From: Scenedesmus sp. ARA3
Taxonomy: Eukaryota; Chlorophyta; Chlorophyceae; Sphaeropleales; Scenedesmaceae
Assembly (NCBI GenBank): GCA_004335835.1
Contig: RWJK01000732.1
Location: 1-64,000 of the forward strand
Length of the DNA stretch: 64,000 nt
Direction of reading: 5' to 3'
Part shown: one piece after another, positions 1 to 55,329 of the stretch
How positions within the stretch are numbered: position 1 is the first letter of the stretch
Layout: every line of letters begins with the position of its first letter
Notes under the pieces: model-generated
Databases searched by the model: none
The model's input: only the letters and a program-made list of their open reading frames with translations
What the model was told of the DNA's origin: nothing
Made by a program: the position numbers and the translations under genes

Positions 1-3000
1 TGCTGCTGCTGCCCTGGGCCGGTTGCAGGGCGAGGCGCATGCCGCATGCTGCTGCCGTATGTCTGCTGCGGCTGCCCAGGTGCAAGGTGCTGCACAGCTG
101 CTGCGCCTGCTGCGGCTGCTGGCTGCTGTGGCAGGCTTGCAAACTCTGCATCTGAGTCGTCGCTGCTGTCAGACGAGTCGCTGTCAGAGCTGTCATCTGA
201 AGATGAGTCATCTGAAAGTAATGACTGCAGCTGATTCCCAACACGCCCTCTTGCTGCTGTTGCTGCTGCTGCAGGGCGTGGGGCTCTCGCCTTAGGCTGG
301 GGCTGGTGCTTCGGCTGCACTATCCAGGCAGGAAGCCGCCTCCTCACATGAGCAGCAGCCAGTTCAGCAGGATCAACAAGCACATTAAGGCTGCCTGCTG
401 CTGCTGCTGTATCTGCTGCTTCGGCCTCCGCCTCAGCCCGTTCCCTCTGGCGCTTCAAGCGGAGCTGCAGCAGCATCTCATGCTTGTCATAACCCCTGAG
501 CTGCTGCTGCTGCTGCTGCTGCCAGAGGTCGTCCAAGGTTTCAGCATGGTCAAACATGCCAGGCTGGAGGCCTGACAGGTGCTGACCTGACATCTGACCT
601 GGCATCTGACCTGGCAGCTGACCTGGCAGCTGACCTGGCATATGACCTGGCAGCAGCAGTGACTGGTGCAGGTAGGGCAGCAGGGCCTCGGGGCCGAGGT
701 GTGTTACATTTGTAACATGTGTGCCAACTGTGACGTTGGTGCGGGGGCCTCGCTTTTTGCCTGGCTGCCGCTTGCGGGGTGGTGGCTGGGGCTTGTTGGC
801 ACGCAGCATGGCCAGGACCTGAGACAGCAGCAGTGCAGCAGCAGCAGCAGCAGGTTGAAAGTGAAACATGAGCATCATCAGATGGTTCCAAGGATTGTTG
901 ATGCACCATGGTTCACGCATGGGGCAGTGAATAGTGCATGGTGCATGCTTGTTCAACTGCACAGTGATCTGGCAGATCATGTTAAGGGAAGTTACACAAG
1001 TTCGAGAAATTATACCGTCTCGGCTCGATGGCATCCAACACAAGTTGACAGCATGGCAGCGATGGGAATTGTCCACCTGCTACCATTCACACAGCATGCA
1101 CATCAGCCGCCTTCCAGCACAATCTATGCAGCACAAGGTGTCAATCTGGCTGCCATCCTTGTGCTGTCTTCACAACAACAAGCTATCAATCAAGCCCTGC
1201 TTGCTCACCTGCTTGCGGTGCCGCCTTGCAGCTGCTGCTGCTGCCATTCTCGCTGCACGGTCAGGCAGCAGCCCTGCGCCCCCAAACAGCCCCTGCTGCC
1301 CTCCTGCACCTACTGCCCCCTCTGCACCCGAGCCCACCACCCCAGCCTGCAGCGCAGCAGGGTTCTCTTCAGGGTTTGTGCAGTTTGCCTGCAGGGTGCC
1401 ATCAGGTGCAAACTGCAGCACTCCCTGCAGGTTTGTCAGGTCAACTATGCCTGGAATGCTGTCTGGCAGCAGCAAAAGCTCGCCGCCTGTTGCAAACTGC
1501 TGCCCGAATACGCTGCCTTGTGATGCGAGGTGATCTCCCACCCCTGGCTGCAGGATCAAAGGCACTGCAGCAGCACCTACCCCATCTTGTGCTGTGGTGC
1601 TGCCCCCTTGCAGGAACTCTGGCTGCTGCAGGGTGAGGTGGGCCTCACCAGGTGCCGAGAGAGGCACTGCTGTTGCAGGCTGGAACAGACCCTGCTGCTG
1701 CTGCATGTCTGGCTGCTGTTGTGTGGAGCCCCAGCCGCCTGTGGCAGATGGCAGCCAGCCCTGGACACTGGGTGCTGGCTCAAGCTGGGGGCCCTGCTGG
1801 CTCTCTCCACCACCTGCTGCTGCTGCTGCTGCTGCTGCCGCTGCTGCTGGCTGTTCATCCATAACAGGTCCCAGTGCCCTGCTGCCTGCCTCAGGGCCTG
1901 CAGCAGAGCCCAAAGGAGGCCAATTTGTAAAGTCACTGCTGCTGGTCCTGAAAGGGCCTGCACCAGCCAGCAGCGCAGCCAGACTCGGGCTAAACCCTCC
2001 TCCTGTACCCTGACTGCCGAGGCTCTCAAGCCGTGCTAGGGCTAGGGCTTTGGGCGTGCTGAACCGCTGCTGCCGCTGTTGCTGGGTGCGAGGACTTTGC
2101 ATGCCTTGCATGATACCGCCGCTGCTGCCACTGCCGCTGCCAGCGGCCCTCTCTAACCTGCCAGCAGCAGCAGCAGCAGCCGCTATACTGCTGCCAGATC
2201 TACGCAGCGTACTGCTGCCGCTGCCTGCCCCCGTGTCTGCTTCCCTGCCTCCACCATTACTCAGCATACACATGAGTGAGCAGCTGCCACTGCCTAGGCC
2301 ACTCAGCAAGCTATCCTGCCGGTCTGCTGCTGCTGCCGCTGCGGCTGCTGCTGCTGCATCAGCAGACAGCCCAGAGGAAGTCAGGGGGTTGGAGAAGCTG
2401 CCACTGCCTTGCTTCATATACTCGCTGTACAGCTCCATGAGGGCATCGCTGCTGTTGCTGCCGGCACGCTTGTCTGATGTCAGTAGGGGCAGCAAGTCGT
2501 CCAGGGTCAGGGGAGTGCTGGGCACAGACCGAAGCGTAGCAGCAGCAGCAGCAGCAGCAGCAGCGGCGGCTGTTGGAGCTGCGTTGGTGCTGGCGGGGGT
2601 AGCAGCACCAGGTGCAGCCATGGCCGGGTGTGTGGCTGGCTTGGAGGGGAGCTTGAGGTGCAGCGGTGCTGATGGTGCTGCTGCTGCTGCTGCTGCCAGA
2701 GTGGCAACGGAGGTTGGCTGGCTCGGGGAGTCTTCAGTGGTAGGTGCTGCCGTTGTTGGTGCCAGATTTGCTTGGGCATCAGGCAGGGGGTTGGATGTGC
2801 GGTTCAGGGGAGCTGGAGGTGATGGTGGGCCGGTGCTGGGGGCCGGGGGGTCTTGGGGGGCAAGGGGCTGGGAAGGCCCTGAGGGCAGGGCAGTCCCTGC
2901 AGGGATAGCAACCCGGCATGTTTCTCAGATGACGCAGAGCGGGTTGGTGCATGGTATGCGTATGCATGTCATAGGAAGGATTGACATGCTATGTGCGGTT

Positions 3001-3377
3001 CAGGGGAGCTTGAGTTGGTGGGGGGAGAAGTGCTGGGAGCTGGGGGGGGGTCTTGTTTGGCAAGGGGCTGTGAAGGTCCTGAGGGCAGGGCAGTCCCTGC
3101 AGGGAACAGCCAGCCAACATGTTTGCTAGATAAGGCAGACAGACTTGGTACACGGTATGCGTATGCATCTCATAAGCAGTATTGACATGCTATGCTTGTG
3201 AACAAGTATGTAGCAAACTCATTATGTTATCATCAGGAAACATCCCGCTGTACTGCAAGCCTACCATGCACAGCAGCTCCTTACCCACTGTGCCGCGCCC
3301 GTCACTTATGACTTGTGCTGGTTGAGCTGCTGCCTTGGCAGCGTCATCTAAACCTTGAGCGGGAGGTGCTGTGGTGG

Positions 3378-3428
<51 letters not shown>

Positions 3429-5055: not shown

Positions 5056-7454
5056 CTAGCTCTTGCTGCCGGCCAGCTCCTGCTGCAGCGCCGCCGCAGC
5101 AGCCGCGCCGCTGCTGCTGCCGCCGCCCACCACCCCCTGACTGCCCACGCTGCTGCTGGGAGTCATGCCATTCCCTTTCGTGCCCTTCCTCTGTATCTTG
5201 ATGTGCAGCAGCGACTCAATCTCCTCACGGCAAATTGGGCACTTGTTGGTCTGCGTCTTAAGCGCGCTCGCGCAGGGCTGGCACATGCACATGTGCCGGC
5301 ACGGCAGCACGGTTGTATCCCTCTCCGCAGACATGCAGATAACGCATTCCCGCCCTTCCACGTCTTCGGCCACGTTCGAACCGTTTAAACGGTTTGAATC
5401 CATGCCGTAGATCTCCTGCAGCTCGTAGCTGACGCCGCCCACCCAGATCTTCTGTTTTGATATCTGCAGCCGCCAGTGGCCCTCGTCATCCTTGCGCAGC
5501 TTGGCATACGTCGTCTGCGCCTGCACCCACGCCGGCAGTGAACCGCCCACCTCCATCTGCAACGAGCACCAGCACCGGCAGCACAAGCAAAAATGCAGTT
5601 AAACGGAGGGGCCCACGGCGGCAGCAGGCGGCCAAACATCAGCTGCACACAGATGGCATGCAGGTCAGAAGCGAGAATACCCTCCGCTCTCGTCATCCCT
5701 GCGCAGCTTGGCATACGTCTTCTGCAACTGCACCCACGCCGGCAGCGAGCCACCCACCTCCATCTGCATACACATACACAACAGGCGCAAAAGCACACAC
5801 GATGAAGCAGATACGCAGGTAAGAGCACTTTCAACTCCATCCACCAGCAGCAGAGCAACACGCAGCCGCATCGCCCTGTCATCTGCCACGTCTCTCTCGC
5901 TTCTCGCTGCTGCAAAACACACTCCGGCCATGTACACAAAACAAGCACAACAGCCTGCCGCGATACTACCACACCTGCGCCGGCTGGCGCCGCTCTGCTG
6001 CCGCCGCCGCCGTGCGCAACTCCAGCCGCACCACCCCAGCTGTTGTACAGCTGTTGTACAACGCCCCCTGCTCCATACTGCACTAGTCACTACTGCCACT
6101 ATGTTCCACCCACCTGCGGCAGCTGCCGGCCCTCGGCCACCGCCTGCTCTGTTAGCACCTCCAGCCGCACCACCAGCGGGTAGCTGTCACCAGCTGAACC
6201 ACAACACCCCTGCCACGTCCCAAAACCATACCACCAACTTCTGAAGGCAGCCCACCTGCAGCAGCTGGCGGCCCTCTGCAACCGCCGGCTCTGCCAGTAC
6301 CTACAGCCGCACCACCCCCGCTGATCAACAGCACCTCGGCCATCAAACCAAAACGACATCATGGCCCTAACAAACATCACTACTGCCACTATGTTCCACC
6401 CACCTGCGGCAGCTGGCGGCCCTCAGCCACAGCCTGCTCTGTCAGCTTGCTCTGTCACCAGGTAAAATCACATCAATCCCTGCCACGTCTCCAAGTCTCA
6501 CCACCGGACTCAGATAACAACCCACATGCGGCAGCTGGCGCCCCTCAGCATCCACTTGCTCTGTCAGCGCCTCCAGCCGCACCATCCTGGCTGAACCCAA
6601 ACACCCGGCCATGCATCAGCAACCTTAGAGCCCAAACACACGACTCTACAGCCCAAACAGCCCGAACAACCCACCTGCGGCAGCTGGCGGCCCTCGGCAA
6701 CAGCCTGCTCCGTCAGCGCCTCCAGCCGCACCACCAGCGGGTAGCTGTCACCAGCAGCCAAGCTCAGCAGCTCGGGATCATGCTGCCGCAGGCTGATGCC
6801 GTGCTGCTGCAGCAGCAAGGCGTCGCCTGGCGGTGGGAACTGGTGATCCATCTGCAGGCAGCGTAGTGCAGGCCAGGTTAGGGTTTGAGCAATGCAGCTT
6901 GTTTGGTGTGGCGAGACTAACGACACAGTCTGGTGGCGCACATGGGTCCCGTGTAAGTAGTTGCAGCAAAGGCGTAAGGCACAGCGAGTCACAGCGTGCG
7001 CTGCACACAGTGCTCCTAACACATATACAGCACAACGTTGCTGTCACACTGCTGCTTGCTGCTGCTGCTGCTGCTGCTGCAGCCGCCATTCGAATGAACG
7101 AGCAGCGCAGGCTCACCCCTTTGGGGTAGTACGCTGCCGGCCGCACGCCCGGCGCTGCTGCCACAATCTTGCAGCCCTGCCGAGGGTCCTCTGTAGCCAG
7201 CAGGAATGTAGTCACCCTGCAGGGCGCTGATGCATCAAACGCAAAGCGCAGTGCAAACTTGGTGTTGCTGCTGCTGCTGCTGCTGTTGCTGCTGCTGTCC
7301 TGCAAGGGCTCCAGCCGCAGCGTCTTCTTTTTGAGGTTGACCTGGTTCTTGATGGTTTGTGTTTGGTGGTACTCGTGCGTGGGGGCTGGCCGCTGCCCGT
7401 ACTGCCCTGGTACTGCTGGAGAGGCCTGCACGCCTGGCGGCATGGGCCCTCCCT

Positions 7455-7485
<31 letters not shown>

Positions 7486-8266
7486 GAGGAGGAGGTGAAG
7501 AAGAGGAAGACAGAGACATAGCAAGATGGTGGGATGGCAGGCATGCCGGAGTTATGCTGACTTGGAGTGCAAGATGGCAGCGGCCCACCTGCTGCTGGCA
7601 CTGCACGCATGTCATGCGTATGCATGCATGTTGCTTGCTGTGCTTACTGCACTGAGAGGCAACAGCTGGCTGGGACCACAACTGCTCAGCAGCGCTGCTG
7701 TTGCTCTGTGCAGCTGTGAGCTCAACCATACCCTGTGCTGGCTCCTGGCACATTGCTCAGCTTCTGGCAATGCCCTTTGACGTTGCCCTGCTGCTGCATG
7801 GAAGCTCACTGGAACCCGGCAACAACATGCACCATATCATCAACTGCTAAGCTTGCTACCCTTTTGATGCTGGCCAGCCGTGCCGGTTGCTGCTGGTGGG
7901 ACCAAGGCTAGTATCAAAATCAACGGAAGTGCTGGCTAGTGCCTGCACCTTATAAGCAATGAACTGCTGGTGCTCACATAAGGTGGTGCCTGGTAGTACC
8001 CTCCAAACAGCTGTTGCCCGTTCGTGTAGCCACCGAAGTTTGGGGTGGGATACTGCACACATAGAACAAACGTGCTAAACAGTGCTGCTGGTTGCCTCTG
8101 CGCGACACCAGCAAGCCAAACGCGCCAAGGTTACCTGCTGAGGGCCTTGCTGGATGTTGGGCTGAGCGTACGCAAAAGGTCCCGCAGCACCCTGTTGCTG
8201 AGCGTTTAGCTGCTGTTGCTGTTGTTCGTCAGTTCTGTGCCGGTGTCTGCTGCTGGATGACCCCAT
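5056..8266 (-). CDS. RING-type E3 ubiquitin ligase, LOG2/LUL (mahogunin-like) family
   Basis: Five exons (8266-8135, 8052-7978, 7452-7117, 6851-6675, 5556-5056), all phase 0, give 406 residues. The N-terminus MGSSSSR is a classic N-myristoylation signal, as in plant LOG2/LUL ligases, so a membrane location is likely. A Gln/Tyr-rich linker leads to the family's DAR2-type region (TIKNQVNLKKKTLRLEP ... FALRFAFDA ... YYPKG) at about residues 95-180. It is followed by YPLVVRLEAL and by IWVGGVSYELQEIYGMD. The C3HC4 RING is at about residues 311-349 (CVICMS ... VLPCRHMCMCQPC ... CPICRE) with all eight metal ligands present. Plant members ubiquitinate membrane-associated targets such as amino-acid exporters; the substrate here is unknown. 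An Ala/Gly/Ser tail of about 45 residues follows the RING. Intron 4 (1.1 kb) is filled with echoes of exons 4 and 5. Confidence 0.95.
5684..5763 (-). repeat. Echo of RING-gene exon 5 head with acceptor
   Basis: On the minus strand TATGCAG is followed by ATGGAGGTGGGTGGCTCGCT, then by a diverged copy of the VQAQTTYAKLRKDDE segment. The copy breaks off after about 80 bp. It lies upstream of the true exon 5 (5556). Confidence 0.85.
6114..6592 (-). repeat. Four echoes of RING-gene exon 4 tail with donor
   Basis: Copies of the sequence coding EALTEQAVAEGRQLPQ plus the GTGGG donor occur at about 6525-6592, 6404-6446, 6256-6310 and 6114-6192, all downstream of the true exon 4 end (6675). The 6114 copy keeps an open frame for the whole SYPLVV...RQLPQ segment. 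The blocks at 6087-6118 and 6377-6408 also share about 30 bp of intron sequence (CACTACTGCCACTATGTTCC), showing that intron and exon edge were copied together. Confidence 0.88.
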
Positions 8267-10140: not shown

Positions 10141-10144
10141 CTAT

Positions 10145-10760: not shown

Positions 10761-10976
10761 CATAAAGAACAACAGCACGCAGAAATCAGCATTCAAGATG
10801 GCACAACACCACTCATCTCCTGCACGCAACTGGCAGTCACTGCCAGAGGAACGGTTCCTCTGCCGACTGCAGCTGCTGCTGCAGCGGCTGCCACATGACT
10901 GGCACCGTCGCCGCAACTGCCAAAGCTATGTCACATTGCAGCCCACAACCTTGCAAGGATTGGCTGCTGTATGAGT

Positions 10977-11420
10977 TGACTACTACTGTATGAAGGTCTT
11001 TATGCTGCCTGTCAGCAGCTAGCTGCCAGGCATCTTCTGCAGGCCACATCCTCCGCTCCTACGCTGCTGCCACTGCTGCAGCGGCTGCTCACATGACATG
11101 TGACAGTGCCGCAACTGCTGAAGCTGTAACACATTGCAGCCCAGAACCTTGGTTACTGTCACAGCAAAGCCCAGCTCCTTGACTACTACTGTATGAAGGT
11201 CTGATGGTGCCTGTTAGCAGGTAGCTGCCAGGCATCTTCTGCAGGCCACATCCTACGCTGCTGCCTCTGCTGCTGCAGCAGCTGCCCATACGACATGTGA
11301 CAGTGCCGCAACTGCTGAAGCTGTAACACATGGCAGCCACGCTTCTTGCCTACTACTGTATGAAGGTCTTGATGCTGCCTGTCAGCAGGTAGCTGCCAGG
11401 CACCTCCTGCAGGCCAGCCA
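10977..11420 (-). repeat. Three echoes of the CLP1 stop-codon region
   Basis: Units starting near 10980, 11181 and 11341 copy the last coding part of CLP1 ([12 protein letters not shown]), its TAG and flanking 3' sequence. The true one is at 11522-11590. Spacing is about 200, 160 and 180 bp. Each unit also carries the flanking CTGCTGCAGCAGCTGC block. All lie downstream of the true stop, matching the direction of tail echoes inside introns. Confidence 0.88.
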
Positions 11421-11524
11421 CATCGTCCGCTGCTGCCTCTGCTGCTGCAGCAGCTGCTCAATGATGACGCAACAGTGCAGTAACTGCTGAATGCGTGCCA
11501 CACAGCGGCCCAGCTCCCTGGCTA

Positions 11525-12589
11525 CTACTGTATGAAGGTCTTGATGGTGCCTGTCAGCAGGTAGCTGCCAGGCATGGCAGCAGACGTGGGCATGAGGCAG
11601 GTGACCTTGTTGCTGGTCACGTCCACGCCGTTGATCCACACAAAGCCAGCCACGTTGCTGGGCAGCAGCTGGTCAGGCACCTGAGCAGCAGCAGCAGCAG
11701 CAGTAGCAGCAGCAGCAGCAGGGGCAGATGTTGCAGCAGATGCTGGCCAGACGCCAAGCAAGTACGTGGCTAGGCAGCTCCCGCTACGCACCACATAAGC
11801 TGCAAGGCAGGCTAGCGAGGGGTGCAGCATACGCACGGCACTGCCTCCTGCGTGTTTGAACTGCCCACCGCCACGTCACATTACTATCCCATGCTTGCCG
11901 CCGACTCTCACATTGGCATCACCACGGCCCCAAACCAAGATGAACAACCTGTAAACAAAGTCAAACACGGTCAAGCCACAGCCGCCGCCCACCTGTGCGT
12001 GTGACACTGCCAGCAGCGACTGCTCCAGCTCCGGTGACACCACCACGGGCGTCACCTTCAGCGGGTTGGCGGCACGCGCCTGGCCCAGCGGCAGCGCAGA
12101 GCTAGGCGGCCGCGGGCCCGTGCCTGCTTGACATGCAGGAGATACAACATAGCATGATGGAAGGCTCAGTGAGACACCCTGAGCAGATTGCCGGCACGCG
12201 CCTGGCCCAGCGGCAGCGCGGAGCTAGGCGGCCGCAGGCCCGTGCCTGCAGCACGCACGGCACAGCACACGTGTGAACGGCAGCTGGCCAACTGTTCGCC
12301 CCTCTGGCGAGGAGTAACACTCTTGAGATGCCAGCAAGAGGGACAGGCAAAGGGACACCGACGCAGATTTGACACATCAACGCCCTCACCTGAGCGGAAC
12401 ACGCGCATGTTGGTGGCGTCCAGGTCAACAGAGGCCGGCTGCAGCCCGCCGTCAGGCCCGTAAAAGTACTCCTTGATGCGCGCCGCGCGCGCCTGCTGCC
12501 GCGCGCTGCTGCTGCGCTGCGCGACGCCGCCCGACTTGTACAGCTTCACGACTGACACAGTCTTACCCATGGCCCCCACCTCACTCTGC

Positions 12590-12625
<36 letters not shown>

Positions 12626-15600
12626 GCAACAGCAGTGTTGCAGCCATTGGGTTGCGCTTCAGTCAGGTGACAGATCAACGAAGTTGGTGACGCAGCTGCA
12701 CTGCTGCGGATCTGGGCGCTGCTGTACACGTAGCTTGATGAGTGGCTACAGTAGAAACTGCAGGGGGCTGCAAAAGGTGGCACAGAGGAATGACCTGTGC
12801 TGAGCAGACACTGACATTGTGCAGCATGCATGCCAGGGCTGTGTTGCAGCTTATGCTGCAGCTGTTTGCCAAGCTGCTCCTTGAGCAAGCTACATATGAA
12901 GATATATTAGACTCACCCAGACCAGAACAGATTATTCAAGTCATGCTATACAACTCGAATGTGTACGCAGCGCACTCACTTTGAGTTGGTTGGTGAGCTG
13001 TGTGAAGAGCCTGTCCTGCTCCATCACCAGCACCACATCAGCCTGCAGTAGCAGCAGCATCAGCAGCAGCAGCAGCAGCAGCAGAAACAGCAAGTTGTTG
13101 CAACATCAACCAATGTAACACTGTCCTGCTCCACCACCAGCACCACGTCAGCCTGCGGGCATCAGCGATGAGCATCAGCAACTTGAACACAACGTGGCCC
13201 AAAAGCTGCAGGGACCGGCTCCGCAGCAGCTCAGAAGCCCACTCCGTCAACATACACAAAACAGCAGCACAACAGTACAGCAGTACAACGGTACAGCACT
13301 ACAACAGCAGCATGGACTGGCAGTACTTTGAGTGACTTGATGGCGTGCAGCAGCAGCTCATGCCGAGCCCGACAACGTACCCCATGGTGCTGACCACCAT
13401 GCCTGGGTGATAAGGAAAAGTCATAACCTTGGAATACCATCCATTGTAACACTCTGCCTTCATCATGCCTTGCTTTTCCAGCACGATCCCAACAACTTGA
13501 GAACAAAGCACGCTGCAGGCACCCACACCAGTACAGCAGGCCAGTTACGATCCAAATCTTGTGGACATACTCACATCTGTTGTAGCCGCACCTTGAGTGA
13601 CTTGATGGCGTGCAGCAGCAGCTCGTAGCCCAGGCCATCCACGTAGCCCATGGTGTTGACCACCTTGCCTGATCGATAAGAACAGCAAACCTTGGAACAA
13701 CCACCTATTTAACAGTCTGCCCTCATCATGCCTTGCTTCTTCAGCAAAGGTCCCAGCAACTTACAAGCTCGCGGCAGGCACAACAGCAATACAGCAGATC
13801 AGGTTGTTGGATCCTGATTACGGTAACACGACTGGTTTGCTGTCTCACCTTGAGTGACTTGATGGCGTGCAGCAGCAGCTCGTAGCCCAGGCCATCCACG
13901 TAGCCCATGGTGTTGACCACCATGCCTGCAGCAGCCACCTCAGGAGAACTGGACGCCCTGCTGTCAAGCACGCTGCACAGCTTGTCCACCAGGTACTGCG
14001 GCAGCAGCAGCAGCAGCAGCAGCAGCTCTACGAGACAACAGGCGTTGGGAGTGACATAAGATAACTGAGGGAAGCAGCAGCGAGCTGGAGGCCCTGCTGT
14101 CAAGAACGCTGCACAGCTTGTCCACCAGGTACTGCGGCAGCAGCACCAGCACCAGCAGCAGCAGCAGCAATCTGGTATGCTGGAGAAAAGTGTGTACAGC
14201 TTGCAGGCACGCACCTCAATGAGACTACAGGGGCTGGGAGTGACATAAGATAACTGAGGCAAGCACCAGCAAAGTGCCAGGCATCAATAACGTAAAATTG
14301 CCGGCCCTGCTGTTGTATGCACATGAAACGTCACCCAGTTGTTTGTCTGACATATATGTGTCAGCCAGACTGAGTGCGACGCAATGATTCCTAGTAAGAC
14401 AGCACTTCTTGATGTCAAGATGCGCACCCTGTACAGCTCCTCCTGCTTGTCTGGTGAGGTGTGGCCGAAGAAGTAAACCAGCGGCGCCTGCAGCACAAAA
14501 AGAAAAAATAAAATGATAAATTGTCAATGTTACACAGCAGCAGCAAAAACACCAACGTGGCTTTGCCACAGTTGTTGAAAGATCCCATGGAAGCTGCCAT
14601 GCAGCCTCCCTGCCATAGATTCGGTTGAGACTCGCTTGTAGCATCACAGCGCATACACACATAGCGCCCTGCCCAGATGCAGGCAGACGAAGCTGTGCCG
14701 TTGCTGCATGTGCCTCAGCAACATAACAAGCGTGCACCTGCCTGTGTGGGGTAGCCTTCCTCTATTGTAATGGGGGCCTCCACAGGTGTGGCAGCAAGGC
14801 ACCCGGGCACTGTTATGCTGCCTTGTCCTGCAGGGCAAGCAGCGGCAGGCAGCAGCAGACATGTTTGCGGCTGAGGTTCCTTCCGATGTTGCGCATCGTG
14901 TGCCACGTGCAACTTGGGTGCAAGTGTCTGAGGACTGGGCAACTTGCAATTGAGAAAAACAAAATGGCGAAGCAAACACAGCAACGCACCTATGTCTAGG
15001 TCCACGTATGTGGGTTGGTGCTGTGCTCTTACTGCCCACTTGAGCAGCATGCGGTACATGCTGCTCTTGCCGCTATCCGTGGGCCCTGCCACCACCACGC
15101 GGGGGCCCTGGCTGCCACAAGATACGCATGCACACATTTAAATTTTATGCGACATTTCAGCCAGCAACAGCATGCTCTGCAGCTCTTCAGCAAGCATCAA
15201 CCAACTGTGAAAAACTGTTTGACGGTTCAAATGCTCACCTATATCTAGGTCCACGTATGTGGGTTGGTGCTGTGCTCGTACTGCCCAGTTGAGCAGCATG
15301 CGGCACATACTGCCGCTGTCTGCTGGCCCAGCCACCACCACGCAAAGCCCCTGGCCGCCACAAGATACACATGTGCACATCTAATTCCATGCGGCATTTC
15401 AGCCAGCAACAGCATGCTCTGCAGCTCTTCAGCAAGCATAAACCAACTGTGAACAACTTTTTGACGATTCAAATGCTGACCTATGTCTAGGTCCACGTAT
15501 GTGGGTTGGTGCTGCGCTCGTACTGCCCAGTTGAGCAGCATGCGGCACATGCTGCTCTTGCCGCTGTCAGTGGGGCCAGCCACAAACAAACAAGCCCAGC

Positions 15601-15945
15601 ACGACGCATGCTCTTCAGGCCCCCAGCAAGCATTAGCTGATTCAACATCATGGCCTATTCATCTACGCAACAGGCCGTTGATTGAGCCCACCAGTGCCCT
15701 AAGGCATGTGCCGCATGAACAAACAACCTACCTATGTCTAGGTCCACGTATGTCGGCTGGTGCTGTGCTCGTACTGCCCAGTTGAGCAGCATGCGGCACA
15801 TGCTGCTCTTGCCGCTGTCAGTGGGGCCAGCCACCACCACGCGGGGGCCCTGGCCGCCACTCGCTTGCGCCTCCTGGCGCAGGTTGTGCAGCACTTGGTG
15901 GCAGTTGATGTAGGAGACGTTTGGGGTGTCCTCTGCCACGTAGCT

Positions 15946-15996
<51 letters not shown>

Positions 15997-16775
15997 GCAG
16001 GAGGTGAGAGGTTGTGCAGCACTTGGTGGCAGTTGATGTAGGACACGTTTGGGGTGTCCTCTGCCACATAGCTGCAGCAGCAGCAGCAGCAGCAGCAGCA
16101 GTTGCGGAACGTGCCGCGGCAGAGGCGTCAACCGCCCAAAATAATGAGCATGCAGGGTAGCGCGCATTGATAGAGGCTGTGCTGTCAATCATCGTCAATC
16201 ATGCAAGCTGCGACACGATGGCTCACCAGGAGCTACAGCTTGCAGAACCATCTGGGCAACCAGTTGCGCAGACGGATGTCACCGGCATATACTTCAGGTC
16301 ACCTGCTGCTTCTGTGTTTGCCGCTACACAGAAACACTTCTTGCTGGATGCATTGATGTCTGACTATCTAGCCGCTGCCGCTGCCGCTGCTGCTGATTCT
16401 GCTGCTGCCTAAAAGAGCTGGATGTCCCACGTACTTGCTGCAAACACAGTGACACATTCACATGCGCCCTGGCTCGTCAGCAACAGCCAAGCCTAGAGTG
16501 CCAAACTGTCAAGAGGGTGATGGCACTACGCCAAGCGCCCCGTGCCAACTGACAAGGCTCTATCATTTGCGAAACCCAACATTGGCGTTGCCGCAAACCA
16601 CAAACCCCAGCGTTTTGCCACTCACACAAAGTCTGGCTCTCCCTCAATGGCCAGCTTGCAGCCGTGCCAGGTGAACACTGCCAGCGCATTGCCGCGCAGG
16701 CTCACTTTGCTGCCCAGCTGCAGCTCAGCACCAAAGATCTCCGCAGAGCCCTCCAGCAGCTGCAAGCAGCAACAG

Positions 16776-16807
<32 letters not shown>

Positions 16808-17453
16808 ATGAGAAAAAGGGTGGTCACGCAAGCAATCAGACTGTTGCAGGCTCTTGCCGGCGCTTGCCGTTGTTGTTGATGCCCAGCAATTGCAATGCAG
16901 CTCCTGCCAGCCGGCATGCATGTGACAGGTGCTGCCCTGCACTGCGTTGCTGCTGCTGCTGATTTCATGCTCCAGTCAGCTTTCCTGCAAGCTAAGCTGC
17001 ATACGTAAGCTTGTCCTGCAAGCGGAATCGTGGTTCCATGCACAATGACGAGGGAGTTGCTCGTGCTTGCATGCTGCTGAGCTGTCGCACACTTACTGTC
17101 ACAAACACATCCTTGTCCTTGTTTGCCTCCAGCCGAAGCTCTTGCAGCTGCAAAACATGGGTGCATGTGCGTTGATGCACAGAGCGGCAGCAGCAGCAGC
17201 ACTGCTGTTAAGGCGCTGAATGGTTGCAGCTGCTGGAAGCCAGAACTACAGCTGCTGCCACGCCCTTCCAATGCTGATTGTTGCGTCATCGCAGAAGAGT
17301 TTACTTCATGCAAGTATCATGGCTGGACCTGTATGTAGCTGACAATTGCAGGGGCGCAAGTCAGCCAGCCTCACAGGCAACAAGTGACAGAGCAAACAGG
17401 CACTGGAGGAGAGGCCAGCTGCTGCTAACCTGTTTCAAGCTATACTCTGTCAT
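11525..17453 (-). CDS. CLP1: Polynucleotide 5'-hydroxyl kinase / pre-mRNA cleavage factor CLP1
   Basis: Eleven exons join in phase to 419 residues, close to the family's 425-445. Minus-strand coordinates: 17453-17430, 17147-17097, 16759-16626, 15943-15732, 14827-14742, 14487-14428, 13995-13849, 13042-12980, 12585-12390, 12123-11993 and 11680-11525. The N-terminal beta domain has [13 protein letters not shown] and [15 protein letters not shown]. The kinase core has the Walker A motif GPTDSGKSS, then [29 protein letters not shown] and [20 protein letters not shown]. The C-terminal domain has [29 protein letters not shown] and [17 protein letters not shown]1 acts in cleavage factor II of mRNA 3' processing and, in some lineages, in tRNA splicing. 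Exon 1 codes only eight residues. Intron 5 appears to use a GC donor (14741). Seven exon edges are echoed in adjacent introns. It is divergent from the malate dehydrogenase gene. Confidence 0.97.
12190..12255 (-). repeat. Echo of CLP1 exon 10 head with acceptor
   Basis: CGTGCTGCAG is followed by GCACGGGCCTGCGGCCGCCT on the minus strand, matching the true exon 10 start at 12123. The frame stays open for about 25 codons and then stops after LLRVSH. It lies between exons 9 and 10, upstream of the true exon 10. Confidence 0.85.
13110..13680 (-). repeat. Echoes of CLP1 exon 7 tail (two) and exon 8 head
   Basis: Copies of the exon 7 end ([22 protein letters not shown] plus a donor-like site) lie at about 13587-13668 and 13318-13410. 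The first keeps the frame; the second is frameshifted. A head echo of exon 8 (GCTGACGTGGTGCTGGTG, after CCCGCAG) lies at about 13113-13157. Tail copies are downstream of exon 7 and the head copy is upstream of exon 8. Confidence 0.85.
14080..14137 (-). repeat. Echo of CLP1 exon 7 head with acceptor
   Basis: GCTGCCGCAG is followed by TACCTGGTGGACAAGCTGTG on the minus strand, then the copy diverges (SVLDSRASS). It sits about 140 bp upstream of the true exon 7 acceptor at 13995, with a (CTG)n block in front of both. Confidence 0.87.
14990..15590 (-). repeat. Three echoes of the CLP1 Walker A exon tail
   Basis: Copies of the exon 4 end ([16 protein letters not shown] ... PTYVDLDIG plus donor) lie at 15481-15590, 15239-15360 and 14990-15117, spaced about 245 bp apart and from the true end at 15732. 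The 14990 copy is intact over about 43 residues including GPTDSGKSS. The 15239 copy has lost part of the P-loop. Donor-like GT follows each copy (GTCAGC, GTGAGC, GTGCGT). The about 130 bp of intron between copies (for example GCTCTGCAGCTCTTCAGC) is duplicated too. Confidence 0.92.
15944..16075 (-). repeat. (CAG)n tract and echo of CLP1 exon 4 head
   Basis: A CAG run at about 15945-15991 directly precedes the true exon 4 acceptor. A second acceptor plus exon head at 16025-16072 repeats CTGCAG and the codons for [20 protein letters not shown], then runs out. Its own CAG run follows at 16074-16100. The pair looks like a duplication with endpoints in the triplet tract. Confidence 0.9.
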
Positions 17454-18008: not shown

Positions 18009-19045
18009 ATGCAGCTCAGCGCAGGTAAGACCTTATCACGTTACAGCAGTCTTTTACAAATGAATTTGAAGCAGATCTGACGTTCGCGGCTGCATGCACA
18101 GGTCAGACAACCCGGGCAAGCGCCTTTACCGGCCAGCGCGTAGGTGTCCATGCAGTGGCACGCCCAGGCGCTGCAAAGGCGCGCAGGACTATGCCAGTTG
18201 TGGAGGCTAAGCGCGTAGCAGTGCTGGGAGCAGCTGGTGGCATCGGGCAGCCCCTGTCACTGCTGCTCAAGATGAACAAGTGCGTCACGGAGCTGGCGCT
18301 GTTTGATGTGGCTCCCCTCGTTAAGGGCGTTGCAGCAGACCTCAGCCACTGCAACACTCCCGTGCAGGTGGGTGCAGCGACTTCGCTTGAGCTGGCAGCG
18401 GCAGCGGTTGTCAGCAGTTTGCTTGATCAAACGTGACCCGACAGCAAGGGTTTGTTAGCACGGATGGCATGAGTCGTAAAGGGCCAGTGAATGGACGTGT
18501 GATATACGGGAAAGTGCATTGTGCAGCGCAGTGGGGTGAGCAGCAGCTGGGTGTGTGCATGCTGTGGTGCAGCAGGTCATCGCCCGCAGTGCAGGTGCCA
18601 CTTGAACTGTTTGTCTACTACTAGTGCACTGCTGTAGTCTGCAAATGCCCTCTCTGTTCTACAGTGCACACTGCTATCTATAACCACACATGTGGTTGCA
18701 AGGTAAGCTGCTTGTCGACAGTGCAGCACAGTTGCAGTACACTGAGCAGTTTCGTTGTTCGCCTGCATGCTGCTTACGGTGCCCTCACATCAAACGACTG
18801 CATTGCTTCTGCAACTCCACATGCAGCCGTCAGCAGCAGTGCAAACGCCATCGCTTGGCTACAGGCTTGCACTCAGCAGCAGCCTGCTGAGCGTGTCTGG
18901 ACACCTCCTGCGGACTCTGTTGCTTTGGCTGTTGCCATTCACAACTTCCAAACAGGTGTCAGCGCTCATAGGTGACGCTGCACTTAAGGCATGCCTCAAG
19001 GGCTGCTGCTGTTGCGTCAGTGCTTTATTTCAGTTCAGTGGAACA

Positions 19046-19097
<52 letters not shown>

Positions 19098-22000: not shown

Positions 22001-22202
22001 AAACTGCGCATGCTGCTGCCGCTGCCATTCTGTGCAGGCCAAGGACCACGACATGAAGGAGGTGGATGTGCCATTGCTGCTGCTGCTGTATTGACTTGTG
22101 CATGCTGCTGCTGCTGCTGCTGCCATTCTGTGCAGGCCAAGGGCCTTGGACCTGAAGGAGGCGGATGTGCCATTGCCGCTGCTGCCCTTCGCCGAACTGC
22201 GC

Positions 22203-22234
<32 letters not shown>

Positions 22235-38102: not shown

Positions 38103-41100
38103 ATGGTAAAAGCGCTTCTAAGCTTGCTGGTAGCGTGCATGCTGCTGGCAGGCGTTGTGGCCAGGCCAACCCCACCTAGCAGCGAAGAGGAGAAGCAAGT
38201 GCAAAGCGTGGTGGCCAAGGCGAAGCAGGCTGGCTACAAGAACACAGAGCCATTGATTGGTATTCTTACGCAGCCATGCAGCGACTGCCCGGGCAGGTAC
38301 GTACGCGGATACAGGCTGCCAGGCTGTAACCACGTGAAAAGTAGCTGCTCACGGTACCCGGCGAGCTGACGGCGTTCCATGGCACGTATCGCAGGTCCTA
38401 CATCGGTGCTAGCTATGTGAAGTGGGTGGAGTCTGCTGGAGGTCGTGTGGTGCCCATCAGGTGAGCAGCCAGCTGCAGCAGAAGGGTAGTTGCAAGCTGC
38501 TTGGCAGTACACAGGAAGCGCTGACTGCTGAATGCCGTTGCTGCAGGTTCTACGCATCAGACAAGGAGCTGTACAGGCTGTTCAAGTCTGTGAATGGTCT
38601 GGTGTTGCCGGTGAGTCAGCATTCAGGATGGCCGTGAGCAGCAACAGCAGCAGCACACGCAGTCGTGCACAACCTTGCTGCACCAGATCAGCTGCATGTT
38701 GCAGTCATACGTCTCCTGCAGGAGCAGTGCATGTTATGCTATCGTGCTATAGCTGTCCTTAGGATAGCTGATCAACATGATACCTTGGAGGCACTACAGG
38801 AGATTACTCTGTTCACCAGATCAAACAGCGGGTTTCACACAAACATCTGCTGCACCTGCCGCAATGCCTGTTGCCCTGCGCTGCTGCTGTCCCTTGAACG
38901 CTTGCACCCTGCAGGGCGGCCTCACCTGGTTGTGGCTGGATGCCCCCTACGTCATCACAGCGCGCAAGCTGTTCAATTGGGCCATCCAGGAGAATGACAA
39001 GGGCAACCCTTTCCCTGTGAGTGCCAGGCAGCAGCAGCAGCAGCACAGCCGCACTAGATAGTATGCGCAACAGCCCACAGGCCCTCTCATTGGTTGCTGC
39101 TTGGCTGCCAGCGTCACCAAGTGCCTGCTGCACACCAGGGTTAATAAACACGTAAACAATTGCTTCCTTCCTAAACCTATCGCGCCCCTCTCTTATTTTC
39201 TTCGCTACACGCATACCGATCCACGGCACCTGCCTGGGCTTCCAGCTGCTGCACATCCTGGCCTCTGATCTGCCTCTGACCAAGTCCATTGTATCCCTCT
39301 GCCTCTCTCTGCTCAAAACATTGCCATGCACAGATCCACGGCACCTGCCTGGGCTTTCAGCTGCTGCACATCCTGGCCTCCAACGTGTCCCGCAATGACC
39401 TGCTGGTCGAAACAGACAGCGTGAGCCACCCCAGCACGCTCATCTGGCCGGCTGACGGCGCGGAGCAGCGCAGCCGCATGTTTGGCAGCCTGCCGGTGAG
39501 AAGCAGCAGCTCGTGCCATTGATCTGGTGTCTGGGTGCATGTAAAGATGGACAGTCTAGCATGAAAAATGCAAAGCTGTGCACCTTCAAGCATAGCTGGA
39601 CCAGGAGTTTGGCATGTGTAGAGCTGGGCAAGAGTGCTTGCGTTGCTTGCAAAGGTTGTAGCGCAGCCGCATGTTTGGCAGCTTTGGCAGTGAACGGCGT
39701 CCTGCAACCAGCCGCGTGTTTGGCAACCTGCCGGTGAGCTGGACGCTCAACACAACAGAAGCTGCAGCAAGGTGCTGTGGATATGTTTGGAGAGTCTGGC
39801 GCCAATTTGCAAGCCATGCTTGCAGATCCCTCACCTGTCGCAGGCCAACCTGCACGCCAAGCTCGCACAACCCATCTGGGCCACTTTTACACTCTGCCTT
39901 GAGTTTCACGAGTTTCTCTGGTACTGAAACCCGCTGTGTTTGTGCCCTGTTTCTGTGATGCAGGCTGACCTGCACGCCAAGCTTGCGGATCCCACCCAGA
40001 ACATCGTACTGCCTTGTCCTCTGTTCAGGTCATAACCATTGCTAAATCCTGCCAGCAATAGCACTGAATCCCTGAATCTGCTCCATTTCCCTGCCACAGG
40101 CTGACCTGCACGCCAAGCTTGCGGACCCTACCCAGAACATCGCGCTGCAGAACCACGAGTACGGCATGCCTCCTGCCTTCTACCAGCGCTGGCCTGTGCT
40201 GGGCCAATGGTACAGCATCCTGTCCACCAGCAAGGACAGGAACGGCCTGGAGTACATCAGCACAATGGAGGGCAAGAAGTACCCCTTCACAGGTGAGAGG
40301 TCGGGTTTGTTGATGTCAGGGTAAGCAAGGCTGCTTTTACAGACTTGACCAGGTGCAACTGCTTGCAGCCAGCAAAGTTCACAAGAAGGGCTACAAGCAG
40401 GCTCATTGGCAAGCGTGCATGCACCATGAGTGCGTTCGCACACTCTCTTCGTCGCATGGCGTGTTGTGCCTGTCACAATCAGCAGTTGGTGCCTGCAATG
40501 CACCGTATGTTCTTTTTGCACCTCTTTGCAGCTAGTACCTGTCGTTCTCAGGCTTATGCCGAGAGTCCTCCCACGCACTTGTTCCTGACTTCACTCATGT
40601 TGTTCTGTTTCATGTTGTGCGGCGCACAGGTGTGCAGTGGCACCCCGAGAAGCCCACCAGTGAGTTTGTCATCCTGGTGCTGTTTGCTGAATTGAACGCT
40701 TTGATCCACGTGCTGTTTCTATTTATGCCCCGCAGGCGTGCAGTGGCACCCCGAGAAGCCCACCAGTGAGTTTGGCATGCCAGAGATCCCCCACACGCTG
40801 GACGGCGTGCGCGTGGGGCAGCATGTGGCCAACTACTTTATCGACACAGCACGCTACAGCAGCCACAGGCCTGAGAGTAACGAGGAGGAGCTGGCCATGC
40901 TCATCTACAGCACGCCTCCGGTGTTCAGCGCACGCTTCGAGGTGAGCGCTTGACAGGCTGGCTGTTATATGCGAGTTTGCTGGCATGTTTGAAGCAAGCA
41001 CAATGCTGAGGAGGATGGTTACAAACGTGCAGACCTCTGCTCTTGGGTTCTTCGAGTGGATTATAGCAGTCTGTTTGGAGAAGGTGAAGGTTCGGACATG

Positions 41101-42077
41101 TGCTTGGTACCTAGCAGAGTGACAGCAGCCACAGGCCAGAGAGTAATGAGGAGGAGCTGGTCATGCTCATCTACAGCACACCGCCTGTCTTCAGCGCGCG
41201 CTTCGAGGTGAGAGCAGGGCTATAATAATTGGCTGCTACTTGCGGCTTTCCTGGCGGGATTTAAGCAAGCATGGTGCAGAGGACTTTCACTATCAGCTTG
41301 CAGTCCTCCACACTTGGGTTGACAGGGAATGCCTACAACACGGGTGCTTGACACATAGCTGTGAACCAGCCAGCAGGCGGCACCGTCTGGCGGGCGTGAG
41401 GTGCAGCCGTGTGTGTTATGATCTGTGTGCTGCCAGCTGCCAGCCCGCAGCAGTGCGCTGCTGCTGCTCCTACCCTGCAGACTCACACATGTGCTTGCTG
41501 CTGCTGCTGCTGCTGCTGCTTTCAGACCATGGCCGAGGACAACTATGATGGACCCTACATGACCTACTACTTTGACAAGGTGCGTGCAGCATGTCGTGGC
41601 GTGCATGGCTTGTTGCTGCATGCTTACTAGCTTGTTGCTGCATGCTTACTAGCTTGTTGCTGCATGCTTACTAGCTTGTTGCTGTAAGAAACGGCTGCCA
41701 CATGGCTTGCAGTGGCTGGCAGTGTATTCGGTCAGCGATAGGTGTCGAGTATGCAATCAATGTGCTGATGTCTTGTTTGCCGTGCTGCTGCCCCTGCAGA
41801 AGACTCACCCTCCCAGTGGCCCCGATGTTGCTGCTGGACAAACCATCATAGGTATCAAGTATGCAATCAATGTGCTGATGTCTTGTTTGCCGTGCTGCTG
41901 CCCCTGCAGAAGACGCACCCTCCCAGTGGCCCCGATGATGATGAGCACGAGGGTGGCGGTGACCCTGACAGGCTCAGCAGCAGCAGCAGCAGCAGCAGCG
42001 CAGCAGCACACAGGCTGCAGCGCTCGGACCTCCCCAGCAGCAGCAAGCGCCGCAGCCAACAGGTGGTGGAGGCATGA
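38103..42077 (+). CDS. GGH: Gamma-glutamyl hydrolase (folate hydrolase), secretory/vacuolar
   Basis: Nine exons join in phase to 402 residues: 38103-38296, 38395-38460, 38547-38610, 38915-39016, 39334-39495, 40100-40292, 40736-40941, 41526-41579 and 41910-42077. A signal peptide (MVKALLSLLVACMLLAGVVA) is followed by PLIGILTQPC and SYIGASYVKWVESAGGRVVP. The class-I glutamine-amidotransferase-like core has the nucleophile Cys in IHGTCLGFQLLHILAS and the catalytic His in GVQWHPEKP. The enzyme trims the gamma-polyglutamate tail of folates in the vacuole or outside the cell. The C-terminal about 55 residues (DDDEHEGGG, a Ser run, KRRSQQ) exceed the usual family length and look disordered. Exons 5, 6, 7 and 9 have echoes. 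Confidence 0.97.
39219..40010 (+). repeat. Echoes around GGH exons 5 and 6
   Basis: A head copy of exon 5 at 39219-39305 (ATCCACGGCACCTGCCTGGG) includes the active-site Cys codon, but the AG acceptor is changed to CG. Tail copies of exon 5 are at about 39657-39697 and 39712-39733, the latter with its GTGAGC donor. Head copies of exon 6 start at 39844 and 39964 after GCAG (GCTGACCTGCACGCCAAGCT). Confidence 0.9.
39541..39612. repeat. Dispersed repeat, copy 2
   Basis: Same-strand partner of 9632-9705 (GTAAAGATGGACAGTCTAGC ... CACCTTCAAGC ... GACCAGGAG). It sits in intron 5 of the hydrolase gene. Confidence 0.65.
40630..40670 (+). repeat. Echo of GGH exon 7 head with acceptor
   Basis: GCGCACAG is followed by GTGTGCAGTGGCACCCCGAG, almost identical to the true exon 7 start at 40736, 106 bp downstream. 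The copy keeps codons for VQWHPEKPTSEF, including the catalytic His. Confidence 0.9.
41116..41207 (+). repeat. Echo of GGH exon 7 tail with donor
   Basis: AGTGACAGCAGCCACAGGCC through CGCGCTTCGAG then GTGAGA copies the last about 85 bp of exon 7 (true end 40941). The frame for SHRPESNEEELVMLIYSTPP is intact. Confidence 0.92.
41608..41690 (+). repeat. 22-bp minisatellite in GGH intron 8
   Basis: GCTTGTTGCTGCATGCTTACTA is repeated three and a half times without mismatch between 41608 and about 41690. Confidence 0.9.
41741..41940 (+). repeat. 110-bp tandem duplication including GGH exon 9 head
   Basis: The block from GTATGCAATCAATGTGCTGA through CCCCTGCAG and the first codons of exon 9 (KTHPPSGPD) occurs at about 41749-41830 and 41859-41940. 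The second is the true exon (41910). Exon head, acceptor and about 60 bp of intron were copied as one unit. Confidence 0.93.
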
Positions 42078-45000: not shown

Positions 45001-45302
45001 GTCAAACAAGTCCTTGCCTCTTCCTAACGCGCGTTAAAGAGCTGTCGTATTGCCAACAACCCGGGCACATGGCAGCAGCAAGCTTTGCCTAGCCGCAGCT
45101 CTGGCCTAGACACAGCGCCATCCGCGCAGACAGTCGCGCAAAAAGCCAGCCTACACTGAATGCAGCGCTGCTGCACAGCCTGGCATGTCTAGTCTTTAAG
45201 AAGCACACTGTCTTCGTATCCCACGACATCATGAGAGTGCAGTTTCACCGGTCATCAAAATGCTGGAAAGGGTGGGACCAGCCACCACGAGCATCAATCG
45301 AA
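42078..45302. other. Long convergent intergenic region
   Basis: 3.2 kb between the stops of the plus-strand hydrolase and the minus-strand CID gene. Open frames on both strands up to about 155 codons are Cys/Ala-rich and overlap one another without splice logic. Triplet runs are few. It should include both 3' UTRs; a non-coding transcript cannot be excluded. Confidence 0.5.
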
Positions 45303-51541: not shown

Positions 51542-51577
<36 letters not shown>

Positions 51578-52271: not shown

Positions 52272-52305
<34 letters not shown>

Positions 52306-53703: not shown

Positions 53704-53734
<31 letters not shown>

Positions 53735-53907
53735 GCCAGCAGCGTGCGGTCAACATCCAGCTCCGCAAAGTAGTGCGGCCGTGCAGCAACCGCAACCGGG
53801 GCCTGCGGGCACAGGTCCATCACAGCAGCAGCATCGAGGTGCGGTCAACGTCCAGCTCAGCAAAGTAGTGCGGCCGTGCGGCAACTGCCACAGGCGCCTG
53901 CGGGTGT

Positions 53908-54004
<97 letters not shown>

Positions 54005-55329
54005 CCAGCAGCGTGCGGTCAACGTCCAGCTCAGCAAAGTAGTGCGGCCGTGCGGCAACTGCCACAGGCGCCTGTGGGTATAGCAGCAGCAGTGGCAGCA
54101 GCAGCAGCAGCGCCAGCAGCGTGCGGTCAACTCCAGCTCAGTAATATAGTGCGGCCGCGCAGCAACAGCGACAGGCGCCTGCGGGTGCAACAACAGCAGC
54201 AGCAGTGTGTGAGCGGTCAGCAGGCCTGCGCACACAACTACAACCAAACTGCCTTGCATGCAAGCACAAATCCATACTTATGTCACACTTTGTTGCAGGA
54301 CATGCCAAGACATGTGCACAACACTTGCTATGTATCACTCGCAACCCCTGCCACCCACCTGATCGTGCTTGCCTGCCCACACCAGCAGCTGCCACACCTC
54401 ACTGCGGTTTGTCAGCGCGTAATTGGCCAGCGCCCTAGCTCCATGCTTGAAGTGCTGAATGCCAGCCAGCGAGAACTGCCCAAACCATGCAGCAGTTGTT
54501 GCAGGGGAGCCTGTGAGGCAGCTGCAGAGGAACTTTGGGTCTTGTGACAGCAGCGCAGCGACGGCCGCGGGCTGTGCGCTGCACAGCAGCTGCAGCAGCT
54601 GCAGCACTGCTGGCTTGCAGGAAGCTACTGGGCTGGGCCCCTGCTGCTGCTGCTGCTGCTGGGGTGAGCGCCTGCTCCTGCTGCTGCCTGATACCCGCTC
54701 CTGTGCGTCATCTCTGCGATGGACGCTGCTTCCTGCATATCTCATGTTGTTATTTGCACAAATGTAACTGTTATCCAGGTCGTCTTGATGACGGAAATTA
54801 ATGCCTGGCAGGCTGCAAGGGTCGAAGCATGTGATGCGCAGTGATGGTGGGGTGTGCTGCTGCTGCTGTTCAGCGATTGTGCTGGTGAGCCATGCCTTGG
54901 CTTCTCCACGGTTGTTGGGGTCATCCTGCAGTAAAAGCGTGCATAAAGCGTTCTGTCAGGATTTACCACAGCAACGCAGCAGCAGCTACCATGCAGCTAG
55001 CAGGACAGCTGCATGACAGCTGCAAACTGCAACATGACTGCATACTCTGTATTGTGATCTGAACATCTGTGCGACCACTGCTGTAATCCTTCCGTAAGCA
55101 GTAAGCCTGTACAGTTGGTGTTGTATCAAAGGCAGCAGAAGAGTGCCAATGTTACCCTGCACGCTTCACATGCTGCTCTGTGGCGCAGGCGCAGCTGCTG
55201 CTGTATAAATGCTGGGCAGAGGCGAGCAAGGGCGATGAAATAGAACCTCACAAGCAAGGTGCGACCGACGGCAGTTTGTGCTGCTGCCAGAGCGTCTTTG
55301 ATTTGTTGCACAGTCAGCTGCTGGTCCAT
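50839..55329 (-). CDS. Nuclear Lys/Arg/Ser-rich protein with helical N-terminal domain, family not recognised
   Basis: Four exons (55329-55252, 54925-54359, 53583-53416, 52473-50839) join in phase 0 to about 815 residues; a further small intron inside exon 4's poly-Ala part is possible. It starts MDQQLTVQQIKDALAAAQTA. An acidic/Ser/Gln linker leads to a helical, probably globular region of about 300 residues: PAVLQLLQLLCSAQPAAVAA, GIQHFKHGARALANYALTNR, RPHYFAELDVDRTLLALARH, ELHRLLHEPRSPRHAALRQL, WTLLCNRLLPLLPQQQLLAF. Exon 4 then has Gln and Ala runs and an SR/KR-like segment (KKRKRSKHEQKGRKRRKH, RHKRKRRHAHSSSSGDSSSS) that should direct it to the nucleus. A role in nuclear assembly or RNA metabolism is only a guess. 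Intron 3 and the exon 3 edges carry the densest echo ladder in the window. It is divergent from a small plus-strand gene. Confidence 0.8.
52558..52690 (-). repeat. Two echoes of exon 4 head of the nuclear protein gene
   Basis: A copy starting at 52588 (TTGCAG then GAGCTGCACCGCCTGCTGCA) and a more decayed one at about 52645-52680 lie upstream of the true exon 4 start at 52473. Flanking GGGGCTCGTGCAGCAGG and AAGAAGC...GGGAGG intron parts are copied with them. Confidence 0.85.
52797..53362 (-). repeat. Ladder of exon 3 tail echoes in the nuclear protein gene
   Basis: Copies of the sequence coding GEWLALEPELVVQ plus GTGCG end at 53297, 53177, 53056, 52934 and, in decayed form, 52797. Spacing is about 120 bp; the true end is 53416. 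Intron parts between them (GTACAGCACGGCACAACCA and GCAGCACCCCACAGCCACTG) repeat as well. Confidence 0.93.
53625..54178 (-). repeat. Ladder of exon 3 head echoes in the nuclear protein gene
   Basis: Copies start at 53691, 53802, 53897, 54071 and 54178; the true exon is at 53583. Each has an AG acceptor, then codons for APVAVAARPHYFAELDVDRT and a Leu/CTG run leading to the next copy. Most keep the frame; the 54178 copy has a 1-nt loss after ITELEL. Confidence 0.94.
53908..54003 (-). repeat. Uninterrupted (CAG)32 tract
   Basis: Ninety-six bases of perfect AGC/CAG repeat on the + strand, transcribed as CUG in the minus-strand gene, lie between two exon 3 head echoes. It is the longest pure triplet run in the window. 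Confidence 0.95.

Follow-up and report, generated by a model that had tools for sequence, protein, structure and literature searches.

Minisatellites within introns form head-to-tail arrays, and internal gene duplication, according to Gao and Lynch, reportedly creates introns through cryptic splice sites. PMC4974935, which cites Hellsten et al. on intron creation by internal gene duplication, describes a tandem duplication crossing an intron-exon boundary in one gene of potato. In mutually exclusive exons, whole exons are duplicated in tandem (PMC9013439). In pseudogene-gene exchange by gene conversion, a non-coding copy can harm the gene or stay like it (PMC3924837). The system considered here belongs to the green alga Scenedesmus sp. 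ARA3 (assembly GCA_004335835.1), where introns contain partial copies of the edge of the adjacent exon, here called echoes. They were noticed in a window of 64,000 nucleotides, the whole stretch analysed (contig RWJK01000732.1, positions 1 to 64,000 of the forward strand).

The window comes from a genome of 87.27 Mb in 1,567 contigs which, judged from proteins near-identical to Tetradesmus obliquus entries, is that of T. obliquus or a close strain. Models were built against T. obliquus or related proteins with a spliced aligner written for the analysis. Seven genes were modelled, the RING ligase, CLP1 and gamma-glutamyl hydrolase (GGH) genes of the window and the chaperonin genes CCT5, CCT1, CCT7 and CCT2 of other contigs, giving 64 introns and 128 junctions with no in-frame stop; the CCT1, CCT2 and CCT7 models are incomplete at one or both ends. 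Counts below refer to these seven genes unless another scope is given. The malate dehydrogenase (MDH) gene was modelled partially from a plant structure sequence, and the outer ends of this fragment are truncated. Repeat counts passed a complexity filter, by which low-complexity repeats were excluded.

Polarity and anatomy of the exon-edge copies

Self-comparison of the window (a preliminary description of this DNA had proposed self-dotplots of each gene) gave 76 direct local repeats (<5 kb) and 1 inverted, and the local repeats were grouped, after a stricter complexity filter, into 35 arrays. With 22 further loci included (284 kb), the numbers are 194 and 2, and inside the seven genes 132 pairs are direct and 1 is inverted. 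Exon-to-non-exon pairs number 102, and every one lies in the intron adjacent to its exon, the arrangement of direct, neighbouring copies expected of tandem genomic duplication. The 5' end of the exon is paired with the intron immediately upstream in 52 pairs and the 3' end with the intron immediately downstream in 46; in the remaining 4, an exon segment that ends before the junction is paired with the downstream adjacent intron. The claim that exon 3' ends are copied only downstream and exon 5' ends only upstream thus holds for all 98 pairs that touch an exon end, and also for 6 of 6 pairs touching 76 kinesin-domain anchors in 20 loci outside the window (those of 130 kinesin-domain matches that fall within the loci examined). 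Copies on the wrong side of exons, which were named beforehand as evidence against the pattern should a genome-wide scan find them equally often, do not occur among the 102 pairs, and neither do pairs with a non-adjacent intron or between exons. No pair spans both ends of one exon (0/102), and therefore the copies cannot replace the exon.

Exon-edge copies were found at 54 of the 128 junctions, which hold 98 copies. The echoes first seen in the window are real, the preliminary description of them being confirmed in part. In this 98-copy set the junction base must align and each side was taken in the expected direction; the test of polarity proper is the 102-pair set. All 53 repeat clusters touch an exon. 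Chance placement does not account for this, since random units of 100-250 bp put into echo-free introns would touch an exon in 50-86% of cases (P 3.4e-4 at 0.86). The excess of junction-touching clusters may reflect quicker loss of recognisable intron-only duplicates and not a bias of birth. When the CLP1 and CCT5 regions were searched for in the DNA of the whole genome (the best 40 of 351 and 40 of 108 candidates scored, simple repeats skipped), partial exon copies were found on the query's own contig. Among these best candidates, the remaining CLP1 matches elsewhere are a few short stretches, chiefly a CTG tract, and the remaining CCT5 matches were left unclassified, one lying inside another CCT gene.

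The polarity follows from tandem geometry together with purifying selection, because use of an edge leaves the protein intact only where that edge is still attached to the exon body, and the spare edge stays outside. Therefore the splice site is not indicated as a cause of the duplication; the polarity rule is a test of tandem adjacency, which was passed, and it is silent on whether splice sites cause duplication. The restriction to splice junctions in the preliminary description also proved too narrow. The stop-codon end of CLP1 and its 3' flank are copied (10867-11575, three overlapping repeat pairs) without a splice donor, and therefore splice sites are not essential; two arrays of the MDH region (20634-21263 and 21300-21604) lie off the modelled exons; and an array at 60672-61584 lies in a leucine-rich-repeat (LRR) reading frame.

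In the 98 copies the exon part has a median length of 54 bp (15-129 bp). The distance to the nearest copy is 90-382 bp (median 129.5), and the spacer from that copy to the true junction is 51-171 nt on the acceptor side and 61-328 nt on the donor side. Divergence of the exon part averages 8.3%. Of the 46 donor copies 44 retain GT, and of the 52 acceptor copies 43 retain AG. That the reading frame is often kept stood less well, with 12 frameshifting indels against 2 in-frame ones. The intron flanks fall close to background just past the splice motif and are mostly without recognisable copying: over 40 nt, mean identity is 0.659 compared with 0.580 for shuffled sequence, and only 22 of 98 copies reach 0.75, so that the 40-150 bp of intron once ascribed to each copy is true of a minority. 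A contiguous copied unit with intron is seen in some cases, at exon 9 of GGH (94.8% identity across 62 bp of intron and 34 bp of exon) and exon 9 of CCT2. Neighbouring spacers are at least 0.85 identical in 16 of 44 pairs (shuffled mean 0.73), and the values of 0.98-1.00 at exon 9 of CCT2 and exon 11 of CCT5 show recent growth by whole units. The largest arrays have seven units.

Copies and spacers occupy 42.6% of the intron sequence. Introns with 0, 1 or 2 echo-bearing ends have median lengths of 304, 453.5 and 763 bp (n = 27, 20 and 17), which agrees with the proposal of intron lengthening. The copies sit inside single introns and the models, built without an RNA test, contain no extra intron.

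Several other motifs were seen in these introns. Of 217 CTGCTGCTG sites, 184 lie in the 3' half of introns, with a median of 42 nt from the acceptor, so that CTG tracts are clustered near acceptors. The telomere-like CCCTAAA occurs 7 times in introns, always in the 3' half, and TTTAGGG 10 times, 8 of them in the 5' half; neither occurs in exons. These 7 and 10 occurrences are too few to make a case for mobile filler or telomere-like insertion as the source.

Codon-position bias and the origin of the arrays

Copy and exon differ at 87, 90 and 291 sites of codon positions 1, 2 and 3 (4.7, 4.9 and 16.0%), a third-position ratio of 3.31 [2.68-4.13] over 54 arrays. The window genes alone are concordant (15, 30 and 76 differences). 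Synonymous differences make up 285 of 468 compared with 27% expected, and at third positions that are not four-fold, 80 are synonymous and 11 nonsynonymous. The ratio is 4.4 in both classes of at least 90% identity, 1.94 below 85% (7 of 98 copies) and 2.55 (1.94-3.44) for echo branches alone. Cytosines in CpG differ more (0.10 against 0.04, echo branches, positions 1-2), and CpG mutability was rejected as the cause of the bias because composition, by arithmetic from context rates, accounts for a factor of about 1.03 only. Exchange among echoes alone was rejected as well, since single-echo arrays have nearly the same ratio (3.15 compared with 3.37). Identity of the copy and of its intron are hardly correlated (Spearman 0.12, P 0.23), a result with which, as with the ratio of 3.31, other histories are also compatible. 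The third-position excess is larger than neutral decay of a simple duplication should give.

We favour, with a probability of about 0.6, an account that combines tandem duplication across junctions, array growth through unequal exchange and an ongoing exchange with the exon. Small local tandem duplications would arise continually in the gene bodies of this alga. A duplication crossing the edge of a coding segment would place part of the exon a second time, in the intron or the 3' flank. Such a duplication would survive only when the gene goes on using the copy attached to the remaining exon, and this would yield the polarity. Arrays would grow by unequal exchange between exon-derived repeats; this is suggested because some neighbouring units share near-identical spacers and the outer flank is often unlike. 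Less surely, intronic copies would keep exchanging sequence with the exon, by conversion or by deletion via recombination between the repeats. A damaging change in a copy would then threaten the gene and be weeded out, leaving copies exon-like while spacers diverge, so that junction arrays would mostly be what stays visible. Occasionally a copy might be spliced in as a micro-exon. The earlier proposal, repeated tandem duplication with the functional junction retained, fits the polarity, the adjacency and the structure of the arrays; its emphasis on the splice site does not, as that site is not indicated as a cause and the copied intron part is usually unrecognisable. A further step, which we put forward only tentatively and consider doubtful, is that exon edges might form small local multi-copy families, with intronic copies exchanging sequence with the exon so often that harmful mutations of the non-coding copies are removed by selection acting through recombination and not through expression.

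Several points weigh against the favoured account. Twelve of the 14 copy indels shift the frame, and therefore constraint on the copies is weak or recent. The echo-branch ratio of 2.55 (1.94-3.44) is near that of neutral decay combined with older exon history, and CpG sites are hypermutable. Several near-identical copies stop 3-6 nt from the splice site beside unlike intron, for which plain tandem duplication alone is insufficient, and of the ten arrays in the MDH region two lie clear of the modelled exons. In the CLP1 stop-codon array there are 5 differences in 151 for the coding part, stop included, and 99 in 706 for the 3' flank (98/700 was used for the flank in the Fisher test); about half of this contrast is predicted for a neutral copy, and the three pairs overlap. 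Additionally, exchange between exon and copy was deduced and not directly observed.

A rival account is simple neutral decay, in which a one-time duplicate across a junction mutates freely with no later exchange with the exon. It accounts for the copies, their polarity and their adjacency; frameshifts are not avoided; the loss of splice motifs (2 of 46 GT, 9 of 52 AG) brackets the roughly 9% that our arithmetic gives from the rate at positions 1-2; and copies below 85% identity have the low ratio of 1.94. It is already disfavoured and we regard it as unlikely, since the third-position excess it predicts is at most about 1.8, an estimate from context rates, compared with the 3.31 observed and 4.4 at 90% identity or above. 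The 80 synonymous against 11 nonsynonymous differences speak in the same direction, and the intron parts have diverged far beyond what the first and second positions of the copies allow.

The synonymous bias of the differences, the conservation of splice motifs and the divergence of the introns would be explained together if unequal exchange had joined the exon edge of one haplotype to the intron and exon of another, each difference between copy and exon then being an allelic one. Diploidy is likely in a relative, according to PMC7955037. Arrays of up to seven units would nevertheless require more than two sources, and copies 96-100% identical in the exon adjoin unlike intron. Proteins from other T. 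obliquus sources are close to the models by eye, suggesting modest allelic divergence, and no second full-length copy of the CLP1 or CCT5 region was found among the best 40 of 351 and 40 of 108 candidates. Copying between diverged haplotypes is therefore rather improbable.

The preliminary description also saw in the echoes a store of alternative exons. Two database proteins provide examples. In the long form of T. obliquus OEZ86_010546 (CCT1), VLESGSVVP occurs twice, exactly where the exon 10 array lies, and the same doubling is obtainable here from a micro-exon of 27 nt that is in frame and has AG before it, in a copy situated 539 bp downstream from the true donor. At the exon 11 array of CCT5, UniRef A0A383W8E2 has a 15-residue repeat resembling the copies here. 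Use of these CCT1 and CCT5 copies as exons may be regarded as a candidate reading of the two proteins; a general exon function is unsupported beyond them. The codon-phase bias would also suit functional alternative exons under direct selection, yet frameshifts are common, the inner end of many copies is without a second splice site (by eye, uncounted), and of four exon 10 copies of CCT1 compared, one has AG ahead of the micro-exon and three do not. Such direct selection is accordingly a poor explanation of the arrays as a whole.

An assembly artefact, with fragments of an alternative haplotype joined in tandem, might be considered because the unit size is close to short-read length and haplotype divergence would presumably look exon-like, and it is very improbable given arrays of up to seven units and given that, in other T. 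obliquus protein entries, one on a 4.4 Mb contig, two of these junctions likewise show echo-like segments.

Distribution among genes and along the window

The echoes are not evenly spread along genes. In the six genes with a modelled start, none of the first three junctions carries an echo (0/18) compared with 50 of 90 others (Fisher P 3.4e-6; 0 of 50,000 permutations), and no echo occurs at any of the 25 junctions that lie at most 1,000 bp from the start codon. The test by rank is the fairer one because echoes themselves lengthen distances. This 5' gap would offer a handle on where duplications arise or are tolerated. Genes also differ. Ten of the 20 kinesin loci (L009-L028) are without a local repeat pair, 7 have 1-3 and 3 have 7-15; kinesin motor domains are often near the 5' end, the part of genes from which echoes are absent. 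No local repeat pair was found by the repeat scan at the CCT6 locus (L033), and therefore expression level alone does not fit as the cause of echoes. The CCT5 and CCT1 loci, unlike CCT6 and 10 of the 20 kinesin loci, are repeat-rich.

In the window, 25 of the 35 arrays fall within the four genes modelled, MDH partially. The left-edge, TXNDC17-like, SCD2-like, CID and nuclear-protein genes, five of the nine genes named at first, lie outside the models. The RING-type E3 ligase gene (5059-8266, minus strand; Pfam zf-C3HC4_3, E 6.8e-17) was aligned to T. obliquus P0125 in 5 exons (8135-8266, 7978-8052, 7117-7452, 6675-6851 and 5059-5556). Its exon 4, with the true donor at 6675, has a donor-side array at 5972-6755 in which five copies (5975-6035, 6114-6194, 6256-6316, 6404-6446 and 6526-6584) lie downstream of that donor. 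Exon 5, with the true acceptor at 5556, has an acceptor-side echo at 5479-5768 (90% identity over 83 bp), in which the copy 5686-5763 lies upstream of that acceptor.

The CLP1 gene (11528-17453, minus strand) was aligned to T. obliquus P0121 in 11 exons. Exon 4 (15732-15943), which holds the P-loop, has a donor-side array at 14982-15860 with copies at 15481-15583, 15239-15361 and 14990-15118, and an acceptor-side echo at 15881-16101 whose copy is 16009-16071 (98% identical over 93 bp, of which 63 are exonic and the rest CTG-rich intron). Exon 7, with its true donor at 13849, has a donor-side array at 13325-13928 (copies 13592-13671 and 13327-13405) and an acceptor-side array at 13946-14270 (copy 14082-14131). 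Single acceptor-side echoes accompany exon 8 (13011-13180, copy 13121-13152) and exon 10 (12053-12249, copy 12175-12245); the stop-codon array on the same strand was given above.

On the plus strand, the MDH gene was identified by a malate dehydrogenase match and spliced alignment, with four modelled exons between 19306 and 23701 (19306-19464, 20085-20231, 22447-22530 and 23546-23701). By coordinates, eight of the ten arrays of its region (18951-24094) overlap a modelled exon, and the other two are those named above. The GGH gene (38139-42074, plus strand) was aligned to T. obliquus P0129 in 9 exons; six of its junctions, between 39215 and 41943, have seven copies (39219-39265, 39709-39733, 39844-39866, 39964-40012, 40630-40672, 41122-41207 and 41800-41833). 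Apart from these genes, the direct repeats at 60672-61584, within the LRR reading frame, form no exon-edge array. Diverged LRR-like gene copies of about 71-74% identity occur in opposite orientations at 30286-32206, 56757-58684 and 63173-63996.

Comparison with known systems

If the pattern is true genome-wide, it would be a concrete source of intron lengthening. The mean intron length of T. obliquus is 462 bp compared with 230-302 bp in four other green algae, according to PMC5966456. Gene prediction would be confused by such copies, and two database proteins already hold echo-like segments. The pattern also opens to testing the extent to which non-coding copies close to a gene stay like it through recombination. 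In the open-licence literature no account of exon-edge copying as a systematic pattern was found, papers beyond that literature lying outside the search. The word undescribed, as first applied to the mechanism, is too strong, given the junction-crossing duplication published for potato.

Like intronic minisatellites, the arrays run head to tail within introns, with periods of about 90-280 bp; unlike them, all 53 clusters include an exon edge. Introns arising by internal duplication (Gao and Lynch; Hellsten et al. via PMC4974935) share an intragenic tandem duplication that interacts with splicing. Those duplications are reported to start inside exons, whereas exon-exon pairs are zero here. Mutually exclusive exons (PMC9013439) are alike in being intragenic tandem copies of exon sequence with splice sites and unlike in that whole exons are copied there, and here none of the 102 pairs covers both exon ends. 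Pseudogene conversion (PMC3924837) concerns whole duplicated genes, in contrast to exon fragments of 15-129 bp about 100 bp from their exon. The closest parallel is the potato gene of PMC4974935, in which the duplicate also crosses the boundary, the exon of the upstream copy partly becomes intronic and splice signals come from the parent junction. That case concerns a single locus, in which two almost identical copies occur and an additional intron was created. In the alga 54 of 128 junctions are involved, often with multi-copy arrays; gain of an intron by tandem duplication was not encountered, as the copies lie within single introns of the models, and it is the existing intron that becomes longer.

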